Of a DNA stretch of 64,000 bases, positions 7,993 to 63,076 are shown one piece after another. Source of the stretch: Marivibrio halodurans (lineage in GTDB: Bacteria > Pseudomonadota > Alphaproteobacteria > UBA8366 > Aestuariispiraceae); the NCBI RefSeq assembly GCF_017963645.1, contig NZ_JAGMWN010000006.1, positions 62,001 to 126,000 of the forward strand, read 5' to 3'. The first letter of the stretch is position 1, and the number at the start of each line of letters is the position of its first letter. The position numbers were made by a program, and so were the translations under genes. A model generated the notes under the pieces. That model saw nothing but the letters and a program-made list of their open reading frames with translations, ran no database searches and had not been told where the DNA came from.

Positions 7993-8046
7993 GAAAACTG
8001 GAGCGGGCGATGAGATTCGAACTCACGACCCCAACCTTGGCAAGGT
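7993..8046. repeat. attL: displaced 3' part of tRNA-Gly, 54-bp direct repeat
   Basis: These 54 bases are identical to 12192-12245. On the minus strand they spell the anticodon loop, variable region, T arm, acceptor 3' strand and CCA of tRNA-Gly(GCC), followed by a few flanking bases. The tRNA 5' half is missing here. This is the displaced target sequence left when an element integrates into the 3' half of a tRNA gene and brings its own replacement copy. Confidence 0.92.
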
Positions 8047-8104
8047 AGGGAAACGGTGAGCGATATCAAACTGTTGTCGGTCTCATTCACACAGGAGAGA
8101 GTGA

Positions 8105-9073
8105 ATGGCGACCATCAGAAAGCTTCCGTCAGGCCGGTTCAACGTTCAAATCCGGCGCAAGAACGCCCACCCAATCAGCCGTACCTTCGATGCGATGGAA
8201 GATGCCCAACAGTGGGCAACCGAGCACGAGCTTGCAGGCAGGGCCGCTCTCAAAGCAGGCGAGGGCCTAACGTTTCTGGAACTGGGTCAAAGATACTGCG
8301 ACACCGTTCTGAAAGGGCGACCGTCGCGGGACATTGCACTCAATCGGGTGGAACGAATCGCCCGGAACTTGCCGCGCCAGCTAACGGACATATCCCGGCA
8401 GGACGTGAATGCTTACCGCCAAATTCGCCTCCGCGCCGTGTCCACCACCACCTGTCGCGACGAACTTGTTTTCATCCATCGGCTTTATCGCTGGGCGCAC
8501 CGGGAAATGATCCTCGATAAAGCTCACCATCCCTCGCCATGCGAGGACGTATATATCCCACCGTCCAACAAACCCCGCACCAAAGTAATTGAAAGGAGCG
8601 AGCTTGATCGGCTCCTTGCCAACCTTCCAAAGACCATGCGCCCCATCATCGAACTGGCCTACGAAACAGCCATGCGACGAAGCGAGATTGTGAGACTGAC
8701 AGCCCGCCATGTGCATCTCTCAGAGCGTGTTGCATCAGTCGTCGAGGGCAAGACTGGGGATCGCGATGTGCCGCTTACTCAGCGGGCTGTAGAGCTTCTC
8801 AGAGAGGCGCTGGCGCGAGTTAAGCACCCCGACGCCCCATTGTTCCCCGTCGTCCCTCACAGTGTCACAACAGCCGTCAGAAGGGCCAGACAGAAGGCAG
8901 GCCTAAGTCCTGATATTCGCCTCCATCAGCTTCGACATACGCGGATTACTAACGTCGCGAAGAAAGGTCTTAACCAGGCGCAAATCATGATGGTGAGCGG
9001 ACACCGTGACGTGCGTAGCGTTCAGAGATACACTCACTTAAGGGTAAAGGATGTTGTCGGCCTGATTGACTAG
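8105..9073 (+). CDS. Tyrosine recombinase (integrase) of the tRNA-Gly element
   Basis: The 322-residue product has the tyrosine-recombinase layout: an N-terminal arm/SAM-like DNA-binding region (residues 1-150) and a catalytic domain (about 165-320). The catalytic residues are visible: Arg in ETAMRRSEI, His-x-x-Arg in HQLRHTR, the late His in SGHRDV and the nucleophile Tyr in VQRYTH. Such enzymes integrate and excise elements at att sites, here tRNA-Gly. ATG 8105 has ggagag 7 nt upstream. The next gene begins 14 bp after its stop with its own ggagg site, so both are probably one transcript. The family is certain; the target is inferred from position beside attL. Confidence 0.95.
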   Translation: MATIRKLPSGRFNVQIRRKNAHPISRTFDAMEDAQQWATEHELAGRAALKAGEGLTFLELGQRYCDTVLKGRPSRDIALNRVERIARNLPRQLTDISRQDVNAYRQIRLRAVSTTTCRDELVFIHRLYRWAHREMILDKAHHPSPCEDVYIPPSNKPRTKVIERSELDRLLANLPKTMRPIIELAYETAMRRSEIVRLTARHVHLSERVASVVEGKTGDRDVPLTQRAVELLREALARVKHPDAPLFPVVPHSVTTAVRRARQKAGLSPDIRLHQLRHTRITNVAKKGLNQAQIMMVSGHRDVRSVQRYTHLRVKDVVGLID

Positions 9074-9087
9074 TTTTTGGAGGACTC

Positions 9088-9753
9088 ATGTTGACATACC
9101 TCAAACGGCGATACTTCGCAGCAACCGTAGCGGCGGAAATCAGAGCTCAGACAGACGACCAAGGGCTAATTAGCACGCTTCTTTCTCGTGCTTGGGCATT
9201 TCAACATCTCGAAGCGCTGCGCACACAATCGTACTATCGAAAAGAGCCTAATGCGTCATTTTTGCACGCTTGTGGCATTCTGGAGCAGGGACTTCTTGAT
9301 CAGGGACTAAGTAACATCACGCGGCGTCAATGTTATGAGGCGCTTCATGCCCGGCTTGATAAAGCAAAATCCAATCTACCATATTGGAGTCGGCACTCAT
9401 TTATTTTTTCAGGATTGCTGGAATCCTTGGATCAGTTCAGCACTACTCAACCTGATGCGAACAAGGTTGACGCCCCCACAGAGGGTTCAGGCGCAGCCTA
9501 CAAAGCAACAGAGCCGATAGTTAGCAGCGAGTTTCCGGCGGGCCGGTATAAGTTAGTCTATAGCCTGCAAACGACAGAACGCGTACGTGGCCAAGTTATA
9601 GGCACCCCCGTAGAATACGTCTTACGCAGCAACGACCTTGAGACAATGTACAACATCGGCTTGGCGAAACAAATGGGAGGCGCTTCGGTAGAGCTCACAG
9701 ACACAGAAAAAAATCAGCTTATTCCTCTCAAACTTGATCACCTACCGAATTAA
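9088..9753 (+). CDS. Unknown element protein, co-transcribed with the integrase
   Basis: A 221-residue product starts at ATG 9088, with a strong ribosome site (ttggaggactc) and only 14 bp after the integrase stop. The first 130 residues are mostly helical (AWAFQHLEALRTQSYYRK, HACGILEQGLLDQGLS). A Ser/Thr/Ala linker follows, then a C-terminal part with alternating hydrophobic residues that may be a small beta domain (GRYKLVYSLQTTERVRGQV). There is no helix-turn-helix, no obvious enzyme motif and no signal peptide. The gene uses AT-richer codons like the rest of the element. It could be an excisionase-like or accessory factor by position only; I do not recognise it. Confidence 0.75.
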   Translation: MLTYLKRRYFAATVAAEIRAQTDDQGLISTLLSRAWAFQHLEALRTQSYYRKEPNASFLHACGILEQGLLDQGLSNITRRQCYEALHARLDKAKSNLPYWSRHSFIFSGLLESLDQFSTTQPDANKVDAPTEGSGAAYKATEPIVSSEFPAGRYKLVYSLQTTERVRGQVIGTPVEYVLRSNDLETMYNIGLAKQMGGASVELTDTEKNQLIPLKLDHLPN

Positions 9754-10106
9754 CAAGCGCCCGAACGTTCCGCCATTCTTCAAATACGGGATGCGATCGA
9801 TTCACTAGAAAGCCGCTGTTGGTTTGAAGCTAATCACGCCCGACGGCTCTGGGACATTAATGCCAACAATGGATTAATAGCAGGGACCGAGAACGCCTCC
9901 GAAAGGTTCAGCACCAACACATGGTCAAGGCCGATGTACGTATTTTCGTGGTCTAGTTTGAGGGTGGAGTGCCCTAGGTTACGAATGAGAATTGGAGGGA
10001 AATAATATATTTTAATAACTTATCCTGTATGGGCGCCGTAGCCCCAAACGGAGGCGCCCCATACGATAAGCGATGAATGGCTTAAGCGAGCGTATACCCT
10101 CATTGC
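9754..10106. other. AT-richer spacer between convergent element genes
   Basis: About 350 bases without a credible gene. The right half contains the AT-rich run aataatatattttaataa followed by the large inverted repeat at 10019-10070. The left half shows no homology or repeats that I can see. Confidence 0.5.
10019..10070 (-). terminator. Long inverted repeat, probable terminator of the polymerase-like gene
   Basis: The arms cttatcctgtatgggcgcc and ggcgccccatacgataag pair over 17-18 positions with a small bulge, around a 15-nt loop. Read on the minus strand, the hairpin is followed by ttattaaaatatatt, a T-rich tail, so it should stop transcription coming from the gene ending at 10107. It could also serve the plus-strand operon ending at 9753. 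Confidence 0.6.
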
Positions 10107-11687
10107 CTAGTCGGCAGGACCATTCATTCGTTCCCATTGAGATTCGCGACGATGATAGCGGGACTTCTCGATCAATGATCGTTTGGCCGCGTCATGGATA
10201 TCTTCGCCAAAGACAAGACCATCAGGCTCATACCCCTCTGGCCGATGGTAGACAGCCTCATCAATTCGAATATCGCACGGCACCCCAACGACCTCTTCGA
10301 ACACCTCGTGCATCGTATGAAACAAGTCCCATTCGGCACCTCGTCTCACGATGAACGAATCGTGGATCGGCAGGGCGGTGACGGGAACCTCGTTGTCGAG
10401 CAAGCGGATCAACACTCGCTCGGCGATATCGGAATCCAGCCGTTGCATTCGTCCCCATGCTTGCGAGAACAAATACTCAGATATCGGCCCGTGCAACTTC
10501 ACCATATCGTTCAGTAGGTCGGTATAGGGGCGCCCAAACCTTTCCTCGAATGCAGTGTTCTGGATACGGGCCTTTGCGTTCTTACTAAGGTTTTCCCAAT
10601 CTGCCGGAAGGGCATCTGGAAAACAGTTGGGCGCGAAGCTGCTACGCCACCGCTTCTCATTCTGCATGACTGTTTTGGCGTTGATTAACTGCATGAACGC
10701 CTTCTTGCCGATCTCTCTTACTTCATTCGGCCAGCCCTCGGGGATGTAGGCGTTCTTTGGTGCTGGCTCGCCAATCAGCCCGTACATCATGCTTGGCTGC
10801 ATCGTCGTGAAATCCATTTCGACTGTCATAAAGCCATCAATCTCGATGAACTTGCGGAACTCGGAAGGCAGCCCCTGCCACCATCCGCCATAGAACCTTC
10901 CGCCATTCTCGTAGCTCGAATTCGCGAATACTCGCTTTAGCGTACGGTTCGCAAACTCCAGTGGCTGGCGTGGCTCTCCAATCTCACTGTGCTCACCGGC
11001 ACTGGTTTGGTCGCCAGACAGTCGAGCGAGGATCTCGTCGTGCTCGGCATCTGTGACGTTGAGGTTGATGAAGCTCTGTTGGAGATTCTCGTTAATCCGC
11101 CGGAGGCTTGCGGCGGCCCCGTCGAAATCGAAGTTCACTGGCTCAGGAAGTGGGATCAGTCGCTTCCTCTCGTCCTTTACCACGATAACAGGGGCGGCAG
11201 GATCAAACGATACTGAGACCCAAGACAGTTCATGCCGTTCAAAAAATTCCGCCAGCCTAGGCGATGCTCTCATGCGGGATGAGAATTCCTTGAAGCCCGG
11301 CGTTTCAATGTGGCTTTCCACATATCCATTGGCAGCGAGAAAATCGACGAGGGTCCGATAAACGTGTTGCGAGAGCAAAGGCGTATCGGTCTCGTGGTCC
11401 CAATAACTCCCGCCCTTAATGAAGTTTTGCTTGCCTCTGCTGTAACCAATGAACTTCGTTCGATCACCTTCCCAAGCTGACAGCAGATCGAGAACGAGAA
11501 TACAGAGTTGGCGGAAATAGGTATGTCGATCGACTTCCCTTAGCCGGTTCTCGCCCTGTGCCGCTCGTTCCGCTTCATACTCACCCATCAATTCGGCGAT
11601 GGAATTTCGTGCCGCCGCATTCGCAGGAGCTAGATCAACGCGGTTTCGCCGCGAGTTCGTTAGATCAACCGCAATCTCTTCCGCCAT
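10107..11687 (-). CDS. Divergent family A DNA polymerase-like protein of the element
   Basis: Numbering is from the frame opening at 11783 (558 residues); the first ATG is codon 33 at 11687, giving 526. The N-terminal 270 residues are unrecognised. From about residue 280 the motif order follows family A polymerases: GGRF...QGLP (294-306, as in GRL...NIP), EMDFTT with Asp324 (motif A, DYS), REIGKKAF with Arg356 and Lys360 (motif B, RxxxK), MQRLDSDI with Gln447 (motif 6, QGTAADI) and PIHDSF with His474-Asp475 (motif C, VHDE). Both candidate metal-binding aspartates are present. No 3'-5' exonuclease motifs are visible. The likely role is replicating the element. The alignment was made by eye, so the fold assignment is inference. 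The start is unsure: neither the ATG nor the upstream GTG 11783 has a well-spaced ribosome site. Confidence 0.6.
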   Translation of the reverse strand: MAEEIAVDLTNSRRNRVDLAPANAAARNSIAELMGEYEAERAAQGENRLREVDRHTYFRQLCILVLDLLSAWEGDRTKFIGYSRGKQNFIKGGSYWDHETDTPLLSQHVYRTLVDFLAANGYVESHIETPGFKEFSSRMRASPRLAEFFERHELSWVSVSFDPAAPVIVVKDERKRLIPLPEPVNFDFDGAAASLRRINENLQQSFINLNVTDAEHDEILARLSGDQTSAGEHSEIGEPRQPLEFANRTLKRVFANSSYENGGRFYGGWWQGLPSEFRKFIEIDGFMTVEMDFTTMQPSMMYGLIGEPAPKNAYIPEGWPNEVREIGKKAFMQLINAKTVMQNEKRWRSSFAPNCFPDALPADWENLSKNAKARIQNTAFEERFGRPYTDLLNDMVKLHGPISEYLFSQAWGRMQRLDSDIAERVLIRLLDNEVPVTALPIHDSFIVRRGAEWDLFHTMHEVFEEVVGVPCDIRIDEAVYHRPEGYEPDGLVFGEDIHDAAKRSLIEKSRYHRRESQWERMNGPAD

Positions 11688-11783
11688 AACCTTCCGCCAG
11701 ACAGCATTTCTTTTAGAGTTAGGCTTGGTGCAGGGGAGTTCTTGCCAACCGTACACATTAAACCCCGGAGAACATGGCTTCAC

Positions 11784-12191
11784 GATGCCAGAGCAGTCAA
11801 ACGATGAGGTCGCGTATCGAGGGCGACGTTTCCTCGCGTTTCGCCCACCGCATCGAGGGCGACAATGCCCACGAAAACAGGTTCTGCAGTCGCGATCCGT
11901 GAATTTCCGCGAGAAAATTTTGAGGCCCGTTGCATATACGGAAAGCCCCCGGTTAGCCCCCTTGCCCCGGCAGCAGCCCCTGCAAACTCTCGCCTTCGGC
12001 GTTCAACGGTTACTCGCGGGCGTAGCTCAGGGGTAGAGCACCCGGAGCGACGTGAGCGCCAGCGAACAGAGCGTGCCACCTTGCCAAGCAGCTTCATTCA
12101 TATTGACGGTGTGAACGAGCGTGAATATCGTCGATCTTTCAAGGGATCGACAATCCACCTGCCCAGCTATAAGCCTCTGATTTTTTAGGAA
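11784..12191. other. Right end of the element: noncoding, with a tRNA-Gly 5'-half relic and small repeats
   Basis: About 400 bases with no credible gene. Contents are a 12-mer direct repeat atcgagggcgac at 11816-11827 and 11852-11863, the tRNA-Gly 5'-half copy at 12016-12041 on the plus strand, and a 7-bp hairpin at 12130-12151 (gtcgatc/gatcgac). The repeats could be recombinase arm sites, replication-initiation sites or neither. Confidence 0.45.
12016..12041 (+). pseudogene. tRNA-Gly 5'-half relic in inverted orientation
   Basis: Twenty-six bases on the plus strand match the 5' end of tRNA-Gly(GCC), from the acceptor strand gcgggcg through the D arm to gagcac, exactly as in the intact gene on the other strand. 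The anticodon, T arm and 3' acceptor do not follow. After 37 unrelated bases comes ccttgccaag (12079-12088), which equals the anticodon-loop core. This looks like a recombination scar, and it forms an inverted repeat with 12247-12272. Confidence 0.7.
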
Positions 12192-12245
12192 GAAAACTGG
12201 AGCGGGCGATGAGATTCGAACTCACGACCCCAACCTTGGCAAGGT
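12192..12245. repeat. attR: 54-bp direct repeat inside the intact tRNA-Gly
   Basis: Identical to 7993-8046. It forms the 3' half of the functional tRNA-Gly plus six downstream bases. By the normal logic of tRNA integration, this copy came with the element and restores the gene. Confidence 0.92.
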
Positions 12246-12272
12246 TGTGCTCTACCCCTGAGCTACGCCCGC
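12198..12272 (-). tRNA. tRNA-Gly(GCC)
   Basis: Seventy-five bases including an encoded CCA. The acceptor strands GCGGGCG and CGCCCGC pair perfectly. The D arm is gctc...gagc, the anticodon stem caacc/ggttg holds loop TTGCCAA with anticodon GCC, and the T arm contains GTTCGAATC. Its 3' half is the integration target of the neighbouring element. A T run follows on the minus strand (ttcctaaaaaatcag region), and a sigma70-like promoter lies 60-95 bp upstream. Confidence 0.97.
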
Positions 12273-14953: not shown

Positions 14954-15145
14954 ATGGCCGATCCCGCTGGCGATATCGACCCGAAGCTTCTGGAGTTCCT
15001 CGTCTGCCCGGTGACGCACGGGCCGCTGGACTATGACGCGGAACGGCAGGAGTTGATCTCCCGTCAGGCGGGCCTCGCCTATCCGATCCGCGACGGCATC
15101 CCGATCATGCTTCCCGACGAGGCGCGCGAGATAAAGGCGGACTGA
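14954..15145 (+). CDS. Trm112 family protein
   Basis: The 63-residue product is a typical short Trm112/UPF0434 protein: [17 protein letters not shown] at the start, a [19 protein letters not shown] strand pair, and IMLPDEAR at the end. Eukaryotic and archaeal Trm112 activates several methyltransferases. In bacteria the partner is not established, and only one cysteine of the zinc motif is kept here, as is common. ATG 14954 has cggag 8 nt upstream and gives the normal family length. An earlier ATG at 14927 overlaps the previous stop and would add nine residues by translational coupling. Confidence 0.9.
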
Positions 15146-15205
15146 GCGCGATCTCCTCCGCTTCATCCGTCACGCCCCGGTCCGGCCTTCCGGCCGCCCG
15201 CGCCC

Positions 15206-16801
15206 TCAATCCACCGGCGCGAAGCTTTCCGCCCGGGCGCGCGCCCAGCGGTGGCTGTAGACCTCGTCGAAATGGTCGGGGTCGTTCAGGCACCCCACCG
15301 GAATTTCTGGGAAGGCGACATCGCCGCTGACGGTCTCTCCGCTCTTAAGGCGGATATTGAAGTGCCGGGGTTCCAGATCGATCGGCGCGCGCAGACCGGC
15401 CGCCCCCACCATGTCCGCCACCGCGCGCAGCGTGTTGGCGTGAAAGCGCGTGACGCGCACCGACTTGTCGGCGGGGACCAGGGCGCGTTGGCGCACCGGG
15501 TCCTGGGTGGCGACGCCGGTGGGGCAGCGGTTGGTGTGACAGGACTGGGCCTGGATGCAGCCGACCGCGAACATGAAGCCACGCGCCGAATTGCACCAGT
15601 CCGCGCCGAGCGCGCAGATCCGCGCGATGTCGAAGGCCGTGACCAGTTTCCCCGCCGCGCCGATGCGGATGCGATCGCGCAATCCCGCGCCGCGCAGCGT
15701 GTTGTGGACGAAGGTCAGCCCCTCGACCAGCGGCGTGCCGATATGGTTGCTGAACTCCAACGGCGCGGCGCCGGTGCCGCCTTCCTTGCCGTCGACGACG
15801 ATGAAATCGGGAACGATCCCGGTTTCCACCATGGCCTTCACCATGCACATGAATTCGCGGCGATGCCCGATGCAGAGCTTGAAGCCGACCGGCTTGCCGT
15901 CCGACAGTTCCCGCAACCGGCCGAGGAACTCCATGAACTCGATCGGTGTCGTGAAGGCCGAGTGGCCGGGCGGCGAGATGCAGTCCCGGTCCATCGGCAC
16001 GCCGCGCGCCTCGGCGATCTCCGGCGTGATCTTGGCGGCGGGCAGCATGCCGCCATGGCCGGGCTTGGCCCCCTGCGACAGCTTCACCTCCACCATCTTG
16101 ATCTGGGGGGCCAGGGCCTGTTCCCGGAAACGGTCCGGATCGAACCGGCCTTGCGCGTCGCGGCAACCGAAATAGCCGGTACCGATCTCGTAGATCAGAT
16201 CGCCGCCGCCCTCCCGGTGATAACGGCTGATCCCGCCCTCGCCCGTATCATGGGCGAATCCGCCGGCCTTCGCCCCCTGATTGAGGGCCAGGATCGCGTT
16301 CGCGCTGAGCGCCCCGAAGCTCATCGCCGAGATATTGTAGAGCGATGCCTCGTAGGGTTGGCGGCAATCCGGCCCCCCGATCGTGACGCGAAAATCACTG
16401 TCCTCGATATGGCGCGCGGCGATCGAATGGGTCAGCCAGGAATAGCCGGCGTCATAGACCCGCTCGCGCGTGCCGAAAGGGCGCTTGTCCTCCTGCCCCT
16501 TGGCGCGTTGATAGACCAGGGAGCGAACCTCGCGGCTGAAGGGTTCCTCGTCCTGATCGCTTTCGATCAGATACTGCCGGATTTCCGGCCGAATCCCCTC
16601 GAACAGCCACCGCATATGGCCGATGACCGGATAGTTGCGCAGGATCGAATGGCGCGGCTGCCACAGATCCCAGATCCCCAGCAACGCGAGCGCGCCCAGG
16701 AGCAAGCCCGCGATCAGGAAGTAGATCGAAACCGCCACCGCCAGGGCCAGGCTCGCCATCGCGGCCAGCAGGACGGCCGCGAAGATGGAATAGCGCATCA
16801 T
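15206..16801 (-). CDS. FMN-binding glutamate synthase-type protein with N-terminal membrane anchor
   Basis: The 531-residue protein starts with two hydrophobic segments (residues 5-45), followed by a glutamate-synthase-like FMN barrel: SFGALSANAILALNQGA, GAKPGHGGMLP and VDGKEGGTGAAP. The cysteine motif CHTNRCPTGVATQ would hold a 3Fe-4S cluster. The glutaminase domain of GltB is absent, so ammonia-dependent glutamate synthesis or another FMN-dependent redox reaction at the membrane is possible; the physiological reaction of this family is not settled. I used ATG 16801, which has ggggaag 10 nt upstream; a TTG two codons earlier is less likely. It converges with the Trm112-like gene. Confidence 0.88.
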   Translation of the reverse strand: MMRYSIFAAVLLAAMASLALAVAVSIYFLIAGLLLGALALLGIWDLWQPRHSILRNYPVIGHMRWLFEGIRPEIRQYLIESDQDEEPFSREVRSLVYQRAKGQEDKRPFGTRERVYDAGYSWLTHSIAARHIEDSDFRVTIGGPDCRQPYEASLYNISAMSFGALSANAILALNQGAKAGGFAHDTGEGGISRYHREGGGDLIYEIGTGYFGCRDAQGRFDPDRFREQALAPQIKMVEVKLSQGAKPGHGGMLPAAKITPEIAEARGVPMDRDCISPPGHSAFTTPIEFMEFLGRLRELSDGKPVGFKLCIGHRREFMCMVKAMVETGIVPDFIVVDGKEGGTGAAPLEFSNHIGTPLVEGLTFVHNTLRGAGLRDRIRIGAAGKLVTAFDIARICALGADWCNSARGFMFAVGCIQAQSCHTNRCPTGVATQDPVRQRALVPADKSVRVTRFHANTLRAVADMVGAAGLRAPIDLEPRHFNIRLKSGETVSGDVAFPEIPVGCLNDPDHFDEVYSHRWARARAESFAPVD

Positions 16802-61552: not shown

Positions 61553-63076
61553 ATGGTTGCACGCGTTTCCACCGTTTCCTTCCTCGGTATCGACACCCTG
61601 CCGATCGACGTGCAGGTCCAGATGTCGTCCGGCATGCCGGCCTTCGCCATCGTCGGCCTGCCGGACAAGGCGGTGGCCGAGTCGAAGGAGCGGGTGCGCG
61701 GCGCGCTTACCGCCATCGGCCTCGCCTTCCCGCCGAAGCGGATCACCATCAACCTCTCCCCCGCCGACGTGCCGAAGGAAGGCAGCCATTTCGACCTGCC
61801 CATCGCGCTGGGCCTGCTGGCGGCGATGGAAATCCTGCCGGCGGAGCGGCTGGCCGACTATGTGGTGCTGGGGGAACTGGCGCTCGACGGGACGGTGACG
61901 GGGGTCGCGGGCGTCCTGCCGGCGGCGATGGCGGCGAATGGTACGGACCGGGGGTTGATCTGCCCGGCCGCGCAGGGCGGGGAGGCCGCCTGGGCGGGCG
62001 ATCTGGAGATCCTGGCCGCGCCGTCGCTGATCGCGCTGGTCAATCATTTCAAGGGAAGCTCCGTCCTGCCGGCGCCGGAGGCGAAGCTGGCCCCGCCGGG
62101 GGCGGAGCCGCCCGACCTCTCCGACATCAAGGGTCAGGAAAGCGCGAAGCGCGCGCTGGAGGTCGCGGCCAGCGGGGGACATAATCTGCTGATGGTCGGG
62201 CCGCCCGGGGCGGGGAAATCCATGCTGGCCGCACGCCTGCCCGGCATTTTGCCGGAAATGGGCGCGCGGGAGGCGCTGGAAGTCTCCATGATCCAGTCGG
62301 TCGCGGGGCTTCTGGAGGATGGGCGGTTGAGCCGCGCGCGCCCCTTCCGCGACCCGCATCATTCCGCCTCCACCCCGGCCTTGGTCGGCGGCGGCGGTCG
62401 GGCCCGGCCGGGGGAAATCAGCCTTGCGCATAACGGCGTGCTGTTCCTCGACGAACTGCCGGAGTTCCAGCGGCAGGCGCTGGAAAGCCTGCGTCAACCG
62501 CTGGAGACGGGCCGCGCCGTGGTGGCCCGCGTCAACGCCCATGTCACCTATCCGGCGCGGGTACAGTTGATCGCGGCGATGAACCCCTGCCGCTGCGGCT
62601 ATCTGGACGATCCGGAGCGGGCCTGCACCCGCGCGCCGCGCTGCGCGATGGATTACCAATCGAAGATCTCCGGTCCGCTGTTCGACCGCATCGATCTGCA
62701 TGTGGATGTACCGGCGGTCTCGGCCGCCGATCTGGCGCTGCCCCCGCCGGCGGAGGGATCGCGGCAGGTGGCCGCCCGCGTCGCCGAGGCACGCGCCATC
62801 CAGGATGCCCGCTTCGCCGCCCTGCCGGAAGAGAAACGCGTCGCCACCAACGCCCAGGCCGACGGGCGCCTGCTGGAGGAGATCGCCGCCCCGGACGAGG
62901 CCGGACGGCGTCTGTTGTCGGAGGCGGCGGAGCGTCTTCGCCTTTCCGCGCGGGGCTATCACCGGGTGTTGCGGGTCGCGCGCACGCTGGCCGACATGGA
63001 AGGCGCCGCCGATGTCCGCCGCCCGCATATCGCGGAGGCGTTGAGCTATCGCCGCCTGGCGCTCAATGCCGGGTAG
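61553..63076 (+). CDS. comM: YifB/ComM family AAA+ Mg-chelatase-like ATPase
   Basis: The 507-residue protein has an N-terminal Lon-like domain (residues 1-170, from VSTVSFLGIDTLPIDVQ), an AAA+ domain with Walker A GPPGAGKSMLAARLPG and Walker B VLFLDELPEF, and a C-terminal ChlI-type helical domain ending EALSYRRLALNAG. ComM acts as a helicase that extends heteroduplex DNA during natural transformation. I chose ATG 61553, where the conserved N-terminus begins; the open frame runs 27 codons further upstream. Its 3' end overlaps the convergent MATE gene by 14 bp. Confidence 0.96.
   Translation: MVARVSTVSFLGIDTLPIDVQVQMSSGMPAFAIVGLPDKAVAESKERVRGALTAIGLAFPPKRITINLSPADVPKEGSHFDLPIALGLLAAMEILPAERLADYVVLGELALDGTVTGVAGVLPAAMAANGTDRGLICPAAQGGEAAWAGDLEILAAPSLIALVNHFKGSSVLPAPEAKLAPPGAEPPDLSDIKGQESAKRALEVAASGGHNLLMVGPPGAGKSMLAARLPGILPEMGAREALEVSMIQSVAGLLEDGRLSRARPFRDPHHSASTPALVGGGGRARPGEISLAHNGVLFLDELPEFQRQALESLRQPLETGRAVVARVNAHVTYPARVQLIAAMNPCRCGYLDDPERACTRAPRCAMDYQSKISGPLFDRIDLHVDVPAVSAADLALPPPAEGSRQVAARVAEARAIQDARFAALPEEKRVATNAQADGRLLEEIAAPDEAGRRLLSEAAERLRLSARGYHRVLRVARTLADMEGAADVRRPHIAEALSYRRLALNAG

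Follow-up and report, generated by a model that had tools for sequence, protein, structure and literature searches.

The stretch of DNA analysed here, referred to as the window, comprises 64,000 nucleotides (nt) of Marivibrio halodurans (NZ_JAGMWN010000006.1, positions 62,001–126,000), and all coordinates below are window positions. It contains a 4.2-kb element at a tRNA-Gly gene that encodes a tyrosine integrase, a 221-amino-acid (aa) orphan protein, and a polymerase-like frame (Table 1). The element is real and well supported, and its kind is mostly known; what it adds is a distinct attachment-site architecture. Judged by its sequence, the locus is demonstrably a bounded element with a restored tRNA. 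The initial annotation had reported perfect 54-base-pair (bp) repeats of the tRNA-Gly 3' half, a tyrosine recombinase next to one of them, and only two further genes; all of this was confirmed, the bases immediately outside the repeats differing on both sides and the two other long frames being taken as genes. A chance origin of the repeats was ruled out by the 54-bp perfect match together with the restored target tRNA. In the same-genus genome G001, the tRNA-Gly gene occurs as a single copy, the element is absent there, and the DNA on the 5' side of the tRNA keeps synteny with the window (72% over 2 kb). The short motifs of the presumed P' arm are putative integrase arm sites, and a promoter-like site at 12103–12131 was within chance (4 found vs 2.4 expected).

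Table 1. Coordinates of the element, its genes, and its attachment-site features in the window
Feature	Position	Strand	Remarks
Distal attachment repeat, 54 bp	7993-8046	-	tRNA-Gly 3' half + 6 bp; identical to 12192-12245
Tyrosine recombinase (integrase), 322 aa	8105-9073	+	PF00589 Phage_integrase, E 8.6e-28; aligned with clade relatives
Orphan protein, 221 aa	9088-9753	+	No family match
Divergent family A polymerase (divPolA2/TV-Pol type)	10107-11783	-	558-codon frame from GTG
N-terminal domain of the polymerase, codons 36-215	11139-11678	-	Winged-helix-like in model, weak (best Z 7.1)
Inverted tRNA-Gly 5'-half copy, 26 nt	12016-12041	+	tRNA positions 1-26, perfect
Insert, 36 nt	12042-12077	+	Hairpin in four relatives; window copy no better than shuffles
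Anticodon-loop core copy, 11 nt	12078-12088	+	Inverted relative to tRNA
Presumed P' arm	12089-12191	.	TGTGAAC and GTGAAT motifs, resembling those by the integrase start (8085-8106)
Proximal attachment repeat, 54 bp	12192-12245	-	Spans 3' part of intact tRNA gene
Intact tRNA-Gly(GCC), integration target	12198-12272	-	Rfam tRNA, 68.5 bits

Profile comparison, structural model, and conserved residues all identify the 558-codon frame as a divergent family A polymerase. In direct searches it matched PHROG 4756, a profile of "unknown function" (E 3.3e-44), which also touched a true Pol I gene (L010, E 3.7e-4) that PF00476 matches at 5.5e-149. NCBIfam gave no family, Pfam returned one sub-threshold peptidase match (E 0.089), and neither the protein nor alignment A3 (78 rows, selected by length and score) found anything in the PDB by sequence at E ≤ 10. 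The motif series of the relatives (GGR, R, DyS.lH, RxxxK, DS.IA, HDSF) parallels in order that of Pol I (TGR, R, DYSQIELR, RxxxK, QGTAAD, HDE). Comparison of the palm profiles of 35 relatives and 30 cellular PolA sequences gave a local score of 39.6 (E 6.7e-5, probability 63.7%) and a global score of 35.4, whereas 60 column shuffles reached at most 26.0 (mean 15.3) and 7.4, respectively, and a reversed PolA control gave 15.3 and 3.0. The window's genome holds a second Pfam DNA_pol_A gene besides Pol I on another contig (L002, G000:C11:370459-371550; 639-aa frame, E 8.2e-35).

The AlphaFold2 model of the polymerase, built from 78 sequences, reached a predicted local distance difference test (pLDDT) of 85.3 and a predicted template modelling score of 0.85. 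All 50 PDB rows listed by Foldseek were family A enzymes (Pol I, apPol, Pol nu, and mitochondrial RNA polymerase; best E 1.4e-4). VIA-align yielded Z 13.1 to T7 RNA polymerase (267 residues, 4.8 Å), 12.6 to apPol (259 residues, 3.9 Å), 12.1 to Bst Pol I, and 11.9 to T7 DNA polymerase, where differences under 1 count as ties. The palm profile score, the Foldseek rows, and the VIA-align results together ruled out an unrelated fold. The family A palm motifs that the initial annotation had read in this gene are thus upheld by profile-profile comparison and fold alike. All 78 rows of A3 share R296, R310, D324, K360, N368, H474, and D475, and 77 have R356; of these residues, R296, D324, R356/K360, and H474-D475 are predicted to be catalytic. 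The enzyme is minimal, consisting of palm and fingers with no match to a nuclease or exonuclease family. In three distant relatives (L033, L102, L104), both catalytic Asp residues are kept but the Arg of GGR, the Lys of motif B, and the His of motif C are missing, and these proteins are perhaps inactive or altered polymerases.

The N-terminal domain, modelled alone with a pLDDT of 92.1, looks weakly winged-helix, with its best Z to ribosomal-protein and regulator rows, and Foldseek found no match for it under 0.001. Because residues 1–32 have low pLDDT and the L080 relative points to a start near there, the polymerase likely begins at the ATG at 11687, which would give a protein of 526 aa.

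Family divPolA2 was named in phages by Yutin et al. 2024, where AUR84708 (in MG592441.1) is given as representative (PMC11348598). A hidden Markov model (HMM) of 73 of the 78 A3 rows, from which five rows of viral-contig loci (L072, L076–L079) had been removed, matched AUR84708.1 at E 5.5e-31 over residues 21–423, and AUR84708 is also the gene under the first-listed phage match of the polymerase. Like the divPolA2 enzymes, the window polymerase has the family A palm residues, no 3'–5' exonuclease, and its own N-terminal globular domain, its activity being predicted. On these sequence grounds, it belongs to divPolA2.

Further searches, of the kind proposed in the initial annotation, found the set of integrase, polymerase, and tRNA repeat repeatedly. 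A six-sequence polymerase profile including the window, run at E ≤ 1e-5 on 385 genomes of the window's class (Alphaproteobacteria), matched 30 of them, four being sources of the profile. A scan of genome contigs with the single polymerase sequence gave 17 stretches with no relative among them; with alignment A2, it gave 399 pattern matches, comprising 363 relatives, and 79 loci were kept, mostly Alphaproteobacteria by record title and also Desulfovibrio, Geomonas, Nitrosomonas, and others. Among the 34 of these 79 loci with at least 8 kb on either side of the polymerase, a tyrosine recombinase was present in 31, a tRNA gene in 29, and a second copy of the tRNA end as a direct repeat in 23, compared with 1, 5, and 0 of 20 arbitrary 20-kb control regions from nine genomes; the recombinase profile was trained on these same loci, which favours recall, and the control regions were hand-picked, both of which temper the contrast. 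Forty elements could be delimited by tRNA repeats (39 distinct, L031 and L201 being one locus), ranging from 3.3 to 17.3 kb, and the window element is the second smallest. The polymerase occurs in 40/40 by selection, the integrase cluster in 36/40, a serine-resolvase cluster (named by eye from sequence) in 10/40, and every other cluster in four at most. Since no cluster besides the integrase is common to most of the bounded elements, their core consists of integrase and polymerase.

Several variations accompany this core. The elements of L171, L189, L213, and L233 carry as repeat the tRNA 5' half (positions 1–40) instead of the 3' half and appear, from their sequences, to restore the tRNA from the opposite side (in L233, the repeat was judged by eye and the intact tRNA is off its contig). 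On one 21-kb contig, locus L032 (G005:C14) has the polymerase gene in two near-identical copies along with part of a third. Defence-like cargo in related elements (L080:3528-5948, L090:11226-13325 and 15047-16312) was assigned by PADLOC to PDC-S60 over the first 188 residues, an LmuB-like ATPase, and a type II methyltransferase. The 221-aa orphan of the window element went unmatched at E ≤ 10 in Pfam, PHROGs, and NCBIfam and at 0.001 in PADLOC; at the latter threshold, it matched only itself in the collected loci and 59 genomes (58 related and its own) and nothing in plasmids or phages.

The best overall explanation, and a probable one, is a small integrative element with an integrase and a minimal family A primase-polymerase. 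The tyrosine integrase would recombine in the anticodon region of the tRNA-Gly gene by a presumed strand exchange, upon which the element's own 3' half, as seen in the sequence, restores the tRNA. Excision would release it as a circle closed through the 54-bp repeat, and the polymerase, in its most likely job, would act on this excised form as a primase-polymerase that both starts and carries out DNA synthesis, with its N-terminal domain possibly holding the origin. This role is suggested because the core has two genes and because CCPol-MP offers the analogy of a family A primase of another element. We infer that the polymerase copies the element and primes synthesis; any role of the inverted tRNA half described below would likewise be hypothetical.

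A number of points weigh against this explanation. Excision, the circle, and polymerase activity are predictions, and no helicase family was found among the three frames of the window element, nor was any other replication gene recognised in it. The empty site that the initial annotation had called for in close relatives is supported on one side only, because the DNA downstream of the tRNA in G001 (MurJ-like by eye) differs from the left flank of the window. A window-like integrase was found at 1e-35 in 8/385 genomes; six of the eight also belong to the 30 genomes with the polymerase (one of these six, G191, has integrase and polymerase on different contigs), whereas G195 and G327 do not, and a search of the G195 genome for the polymerase gave nothing at E ≤ 1, an empty answer that is weak when taken alone. 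For the polymerase itself, Pfam DNA_pol_A (PF00476), the family profile that the initial annotation had named for comparison, gave no match at E ≤ 10, and family A rests instead on the profile-profile comparison and the model; the uncut profiles score only 31.6 locally (E 0.0096, probability 4.3%), and the Foldseek TM-scores are low (0.2–0.3). The structural comparison does not separate RNA from DNA polymerases, their scores being tied. As deduced from motif spacing, the position of the Pol I sugar-gate Glu holds His in 75/78 and Leu in 2/78 rows of A3 and Gln in the window polymerase, and the O-helix Tyr position holds Asn in 78/78. The L080 polymerase also has Gln at the sugar-gate position. 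With both residues replaced, the product may be DNA or RNA.

These replacements, together with the best structural Z to T7 RNA polymerase, albeit tied with DNA polymerases, fit an enzyme that is a single-subunit RNA polymerase and transcribes the element genes or makes RNA primers only, an option raised for divPolA2 as well by Yutin et al. 2024 (PMC11348598). However, the 18 top-ranked PDB rows of Foldseek are DNA polymerases and CCPol, placed in TV-Pol, is described as making DNA, and an RNA polymerase is considered unlikely. The primase-polymerase reading also has to be set against that of a phage satellite whose polymerase copies the element mainly during infection by a helper phage. Small tRNA-integrated elements with variable cargo, defence-like in two of them (L080 and L090 by PADLOC), would suit a satellite, as would the presence of divPolA2 in large phages; yet the five clusters common to at least three elements were not recognised as capsid, terminase, or packaging genes, with no search aimed at these, and no helper is known, which leaves a satellite improbable.

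A polymerase that serves as repair or defence cargo, with no part in moving or copying the element, would account for the relative of the integrase clade in G195 that appears without a polymerase, and the divPolA2 of barbaviruses is described as accompanying another DNA polymerase (PMC11348598). Cargo would nevertheless be expected on varied platforms, whereas the integrase is common to 36/40 elements found through the polymerase and the next cluster to 10/40, so that the cargo reading has a distinctly small chance of being right. Least of all do we favour a decayed, immobile remnant in the window: the small size of the element, the left flank that differs from G001, and the orphan status of the 221-aa gene are compatible with decay, but both attachment repeats are perfect, the integrase and polymerase frames are open, and the polymerase residues are kept, making a remnant very improbable.

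Apart from its genes, the element carries an inverted copy of the tRNA 5' half, which the initial annotation does not mention and which lies inside the element 157–182 nt past the tRNA 3' end. The comparison covered 86 tRNA genes (78 distinct) in and around the polymerase loci, where 40/112 loci were without any and L234 was included for its integrase. An inverted 5' half within 350 nt downstream scored 17–27 for six of the 86, whereas the other 80 scored at most 9 and shuffles at most 13. The six tRNAs are those of the window (Gly), L080 (Gly), L090 (Val), L154 (Thr), L185 (Gly), and L198 (Gln, Geomonas). Each copy matches its own tRNA best: 19 vs at most 9 on other tRNAs for Val, 27 vs 14 for Thr, 17 vs 7 for Gln, and 23–27 vs at most 16 on non-Gly tRNAs for the Gly copies. 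The core copy measures 10–11 nt in the window, L080, L185, and G195 and 8 nt in L090, is imperfect as aligned in L154, and was not found in L198.

The integrases of the window, L080, L090, L154, L158, and G195 form one clade (support 1.000); L158 has its tRNA side and L185 its integrase off the contig, and L198, which has the inverted half, carries a different integrase. The G195 element, examined as a test, shows the same arrangement with a 23-nt inverted match, and no polymerase was found in its genome, which ruled out the inverted half as a feature of the polymerase. This element and the distribution over the clade indicate that the inverted half goes mainly with the integrase type. It could not be shown to be a fixed feature of related integrases, as L240 and L241 (found by the clade profile; integrases 50–51% identical to that of the window; far ends maybe off contig) show no copy in a D-arm motif scan and L243 and L244 (35–38% identical) none by scan. 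The viral-collection contig L242, whose integrase was found by the clade profile, has by eye a degenerate inverted half relative to the 5' half deduced from its visible 3' half, which weakens perfect complementarity as a requirement. When the integrase clade was sought more widely at E ≤ 1e-60, only known members came back (2/398 and 3/385 genomes), the tRNA-Val version of the inverted-half pattern scan gave nothing, and L268 from the pattern scan was dropped as a tRNA cluster on a viral contig.

In silico, joining the tRNA and the downstream RNA gives a branched fold whose stability exceeds that of the separate parts in 7/7 exact cases, as is expected of any long inverted repeat; for the window, the values are −134.6 kcal/mol joined vs −30.2 and −62.7 for the parts. 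Of these, L080, L185, and G195 alone gave a clean three-way junction. Compared with shuffles, the insert folds better in four cases (L080, L090, L185, and G195; z −2.0 to −2.9), no better in L154 (z −0.5), and worse in the window (z +2.07); that of L198 could not be scored. Covariation of the insert hairpin was not significant, with one compensatory pair of eight in three sequences, a result reached by 162/500 shuffles.

A different type of inverted repeat was observed in L086, L148, L152, L163, L175, L179, L181, L187, L208, and L212. It comprises the tRNA 3' end and about 44–475 bp of adjoining element DNA (71–492 bp aligned, 87–100% identical) and flanks the integrase in L086, L148, L152, and L212 and the polymerase in L163, L181, and L208.

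The attachment-site architecture with the inverted 5' half is distinct, and we recognised no report of an inverted tRNA half at attachment sites in the literature, which is not proof of absence; it may act at the level of DNA or RNA. A tentative and on the whole doubtful joint reading would make the inverted half of the clade an integration-state switch and the polymerase its independent, primer-free partner. Taken with all its parts, one integrase clade, including that of the window, would give its elements the inverted, interrupted 5'-half copy next to the attachment site, and only integration in the right tRNA would allow the branched fold, formed by read-through RNA or single-stranded DNA, to tie up the host tRNA 5' half. 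The switch would thereby distinguish the integrated from the circular state and control the integrase or excision, while the sugar-selection site (His/Gln with Asn) would let the polymerase start strands without a primer. As an architecture, the recurring inverted half is concrete and unexplained, and mutation offers a way to test it.

Pipolins use a tRNA-targeting tyrosine recombinase, and tRNA integration with such a recombinase is found in the window element as well. They are likewise described as integrative elements with their own polymerase (PMC7385651). The pipolin polymerase, piPolB, belongs to family B and is unrelated to the window polymerase, whose motif order and fold are those of family A. 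The parallel to pipolins with another polymerase class that the initial annotation had drawn is accordingly supported in outline and is not new, having precedents in TV-Pol (2008) and divPolA2 (2024). CCPol of SCCmec, which together with its partner MP primes DNA de novo in vitro (Bebel et al. 2020, PMC7581432), is a family A polymerase of a mobile element too; such pairs were surveyed by Rice 2023 (PMC10061031). As described in this work, CCPol is close to Pol I and keeps the E710 and F762 equivalents, unlike the window polymerase, and it works with the SSB-like MP and a helicase, mostly alongside serine recombinases. The window element showed no recognisable counterpart of any of these, the 221-aa protein being judged by sequence.

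TV-Pol enzymes, minimal polymerases of family A type, were described from mobile elements in several groups of bacteria, including alphaproteobacteria and Geobacter, and priming and replication were proposed as their function (Iyer, Abhiman, Aravind 2008, PMC2579912). According to that paper, they resemble the window polymerase in their 400–600 residues, hairpin Arg, RxxxK, two Asp, and lack of a nuclease, and the window family in residing in mobile elements with a lambda-type integrase or gamma-delta resolvase, besides others with a transposase, and in the proposed primase-polymerase role. The corresponding residues here are R296, D324, D475, and K360 in 78/78 rows and R356 in 77/78, with no nuclease family match, and the corresponding context is the integrase cluster in 36/40 and the serine-resolvase cluster in 10/40 bounded elements. 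As differences, the word "tRNA" is absent from the main text of that paper, and the window element has no recognisable D5 helicase. A direct sequence link to a named TV-Pol was looked for in Microcystis phage Ma-LMM01 and not found: an HMM of the polymerase family had no match in the first 50 kb of its 162 kb, where gp030 (L237:22746-24266; 506 aa), also without an HMM match, adjoins transposase genes and looks palm-like by eye (GGLQG, YDVVKCH, HDG). The window polymerase is most likely a TV-Pol member.

A close counterpart is divPolA2, which is homologous to the window polymerase over nearly its full length, including the N-terminal domain, and is reported with similarly mixed structural matches to DNA and RNA polymerases (PMC11348598). 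The 4.2-kb, three-gene element makes the function of divPolA2 testable, both in the copying of a circle and in priming. Described from tailed phages as an extra polymerase in that report, the phage-defined divPolA2 gains a second context in the small integrated elements, whose common core consists of just two genes, the polymerase being one.

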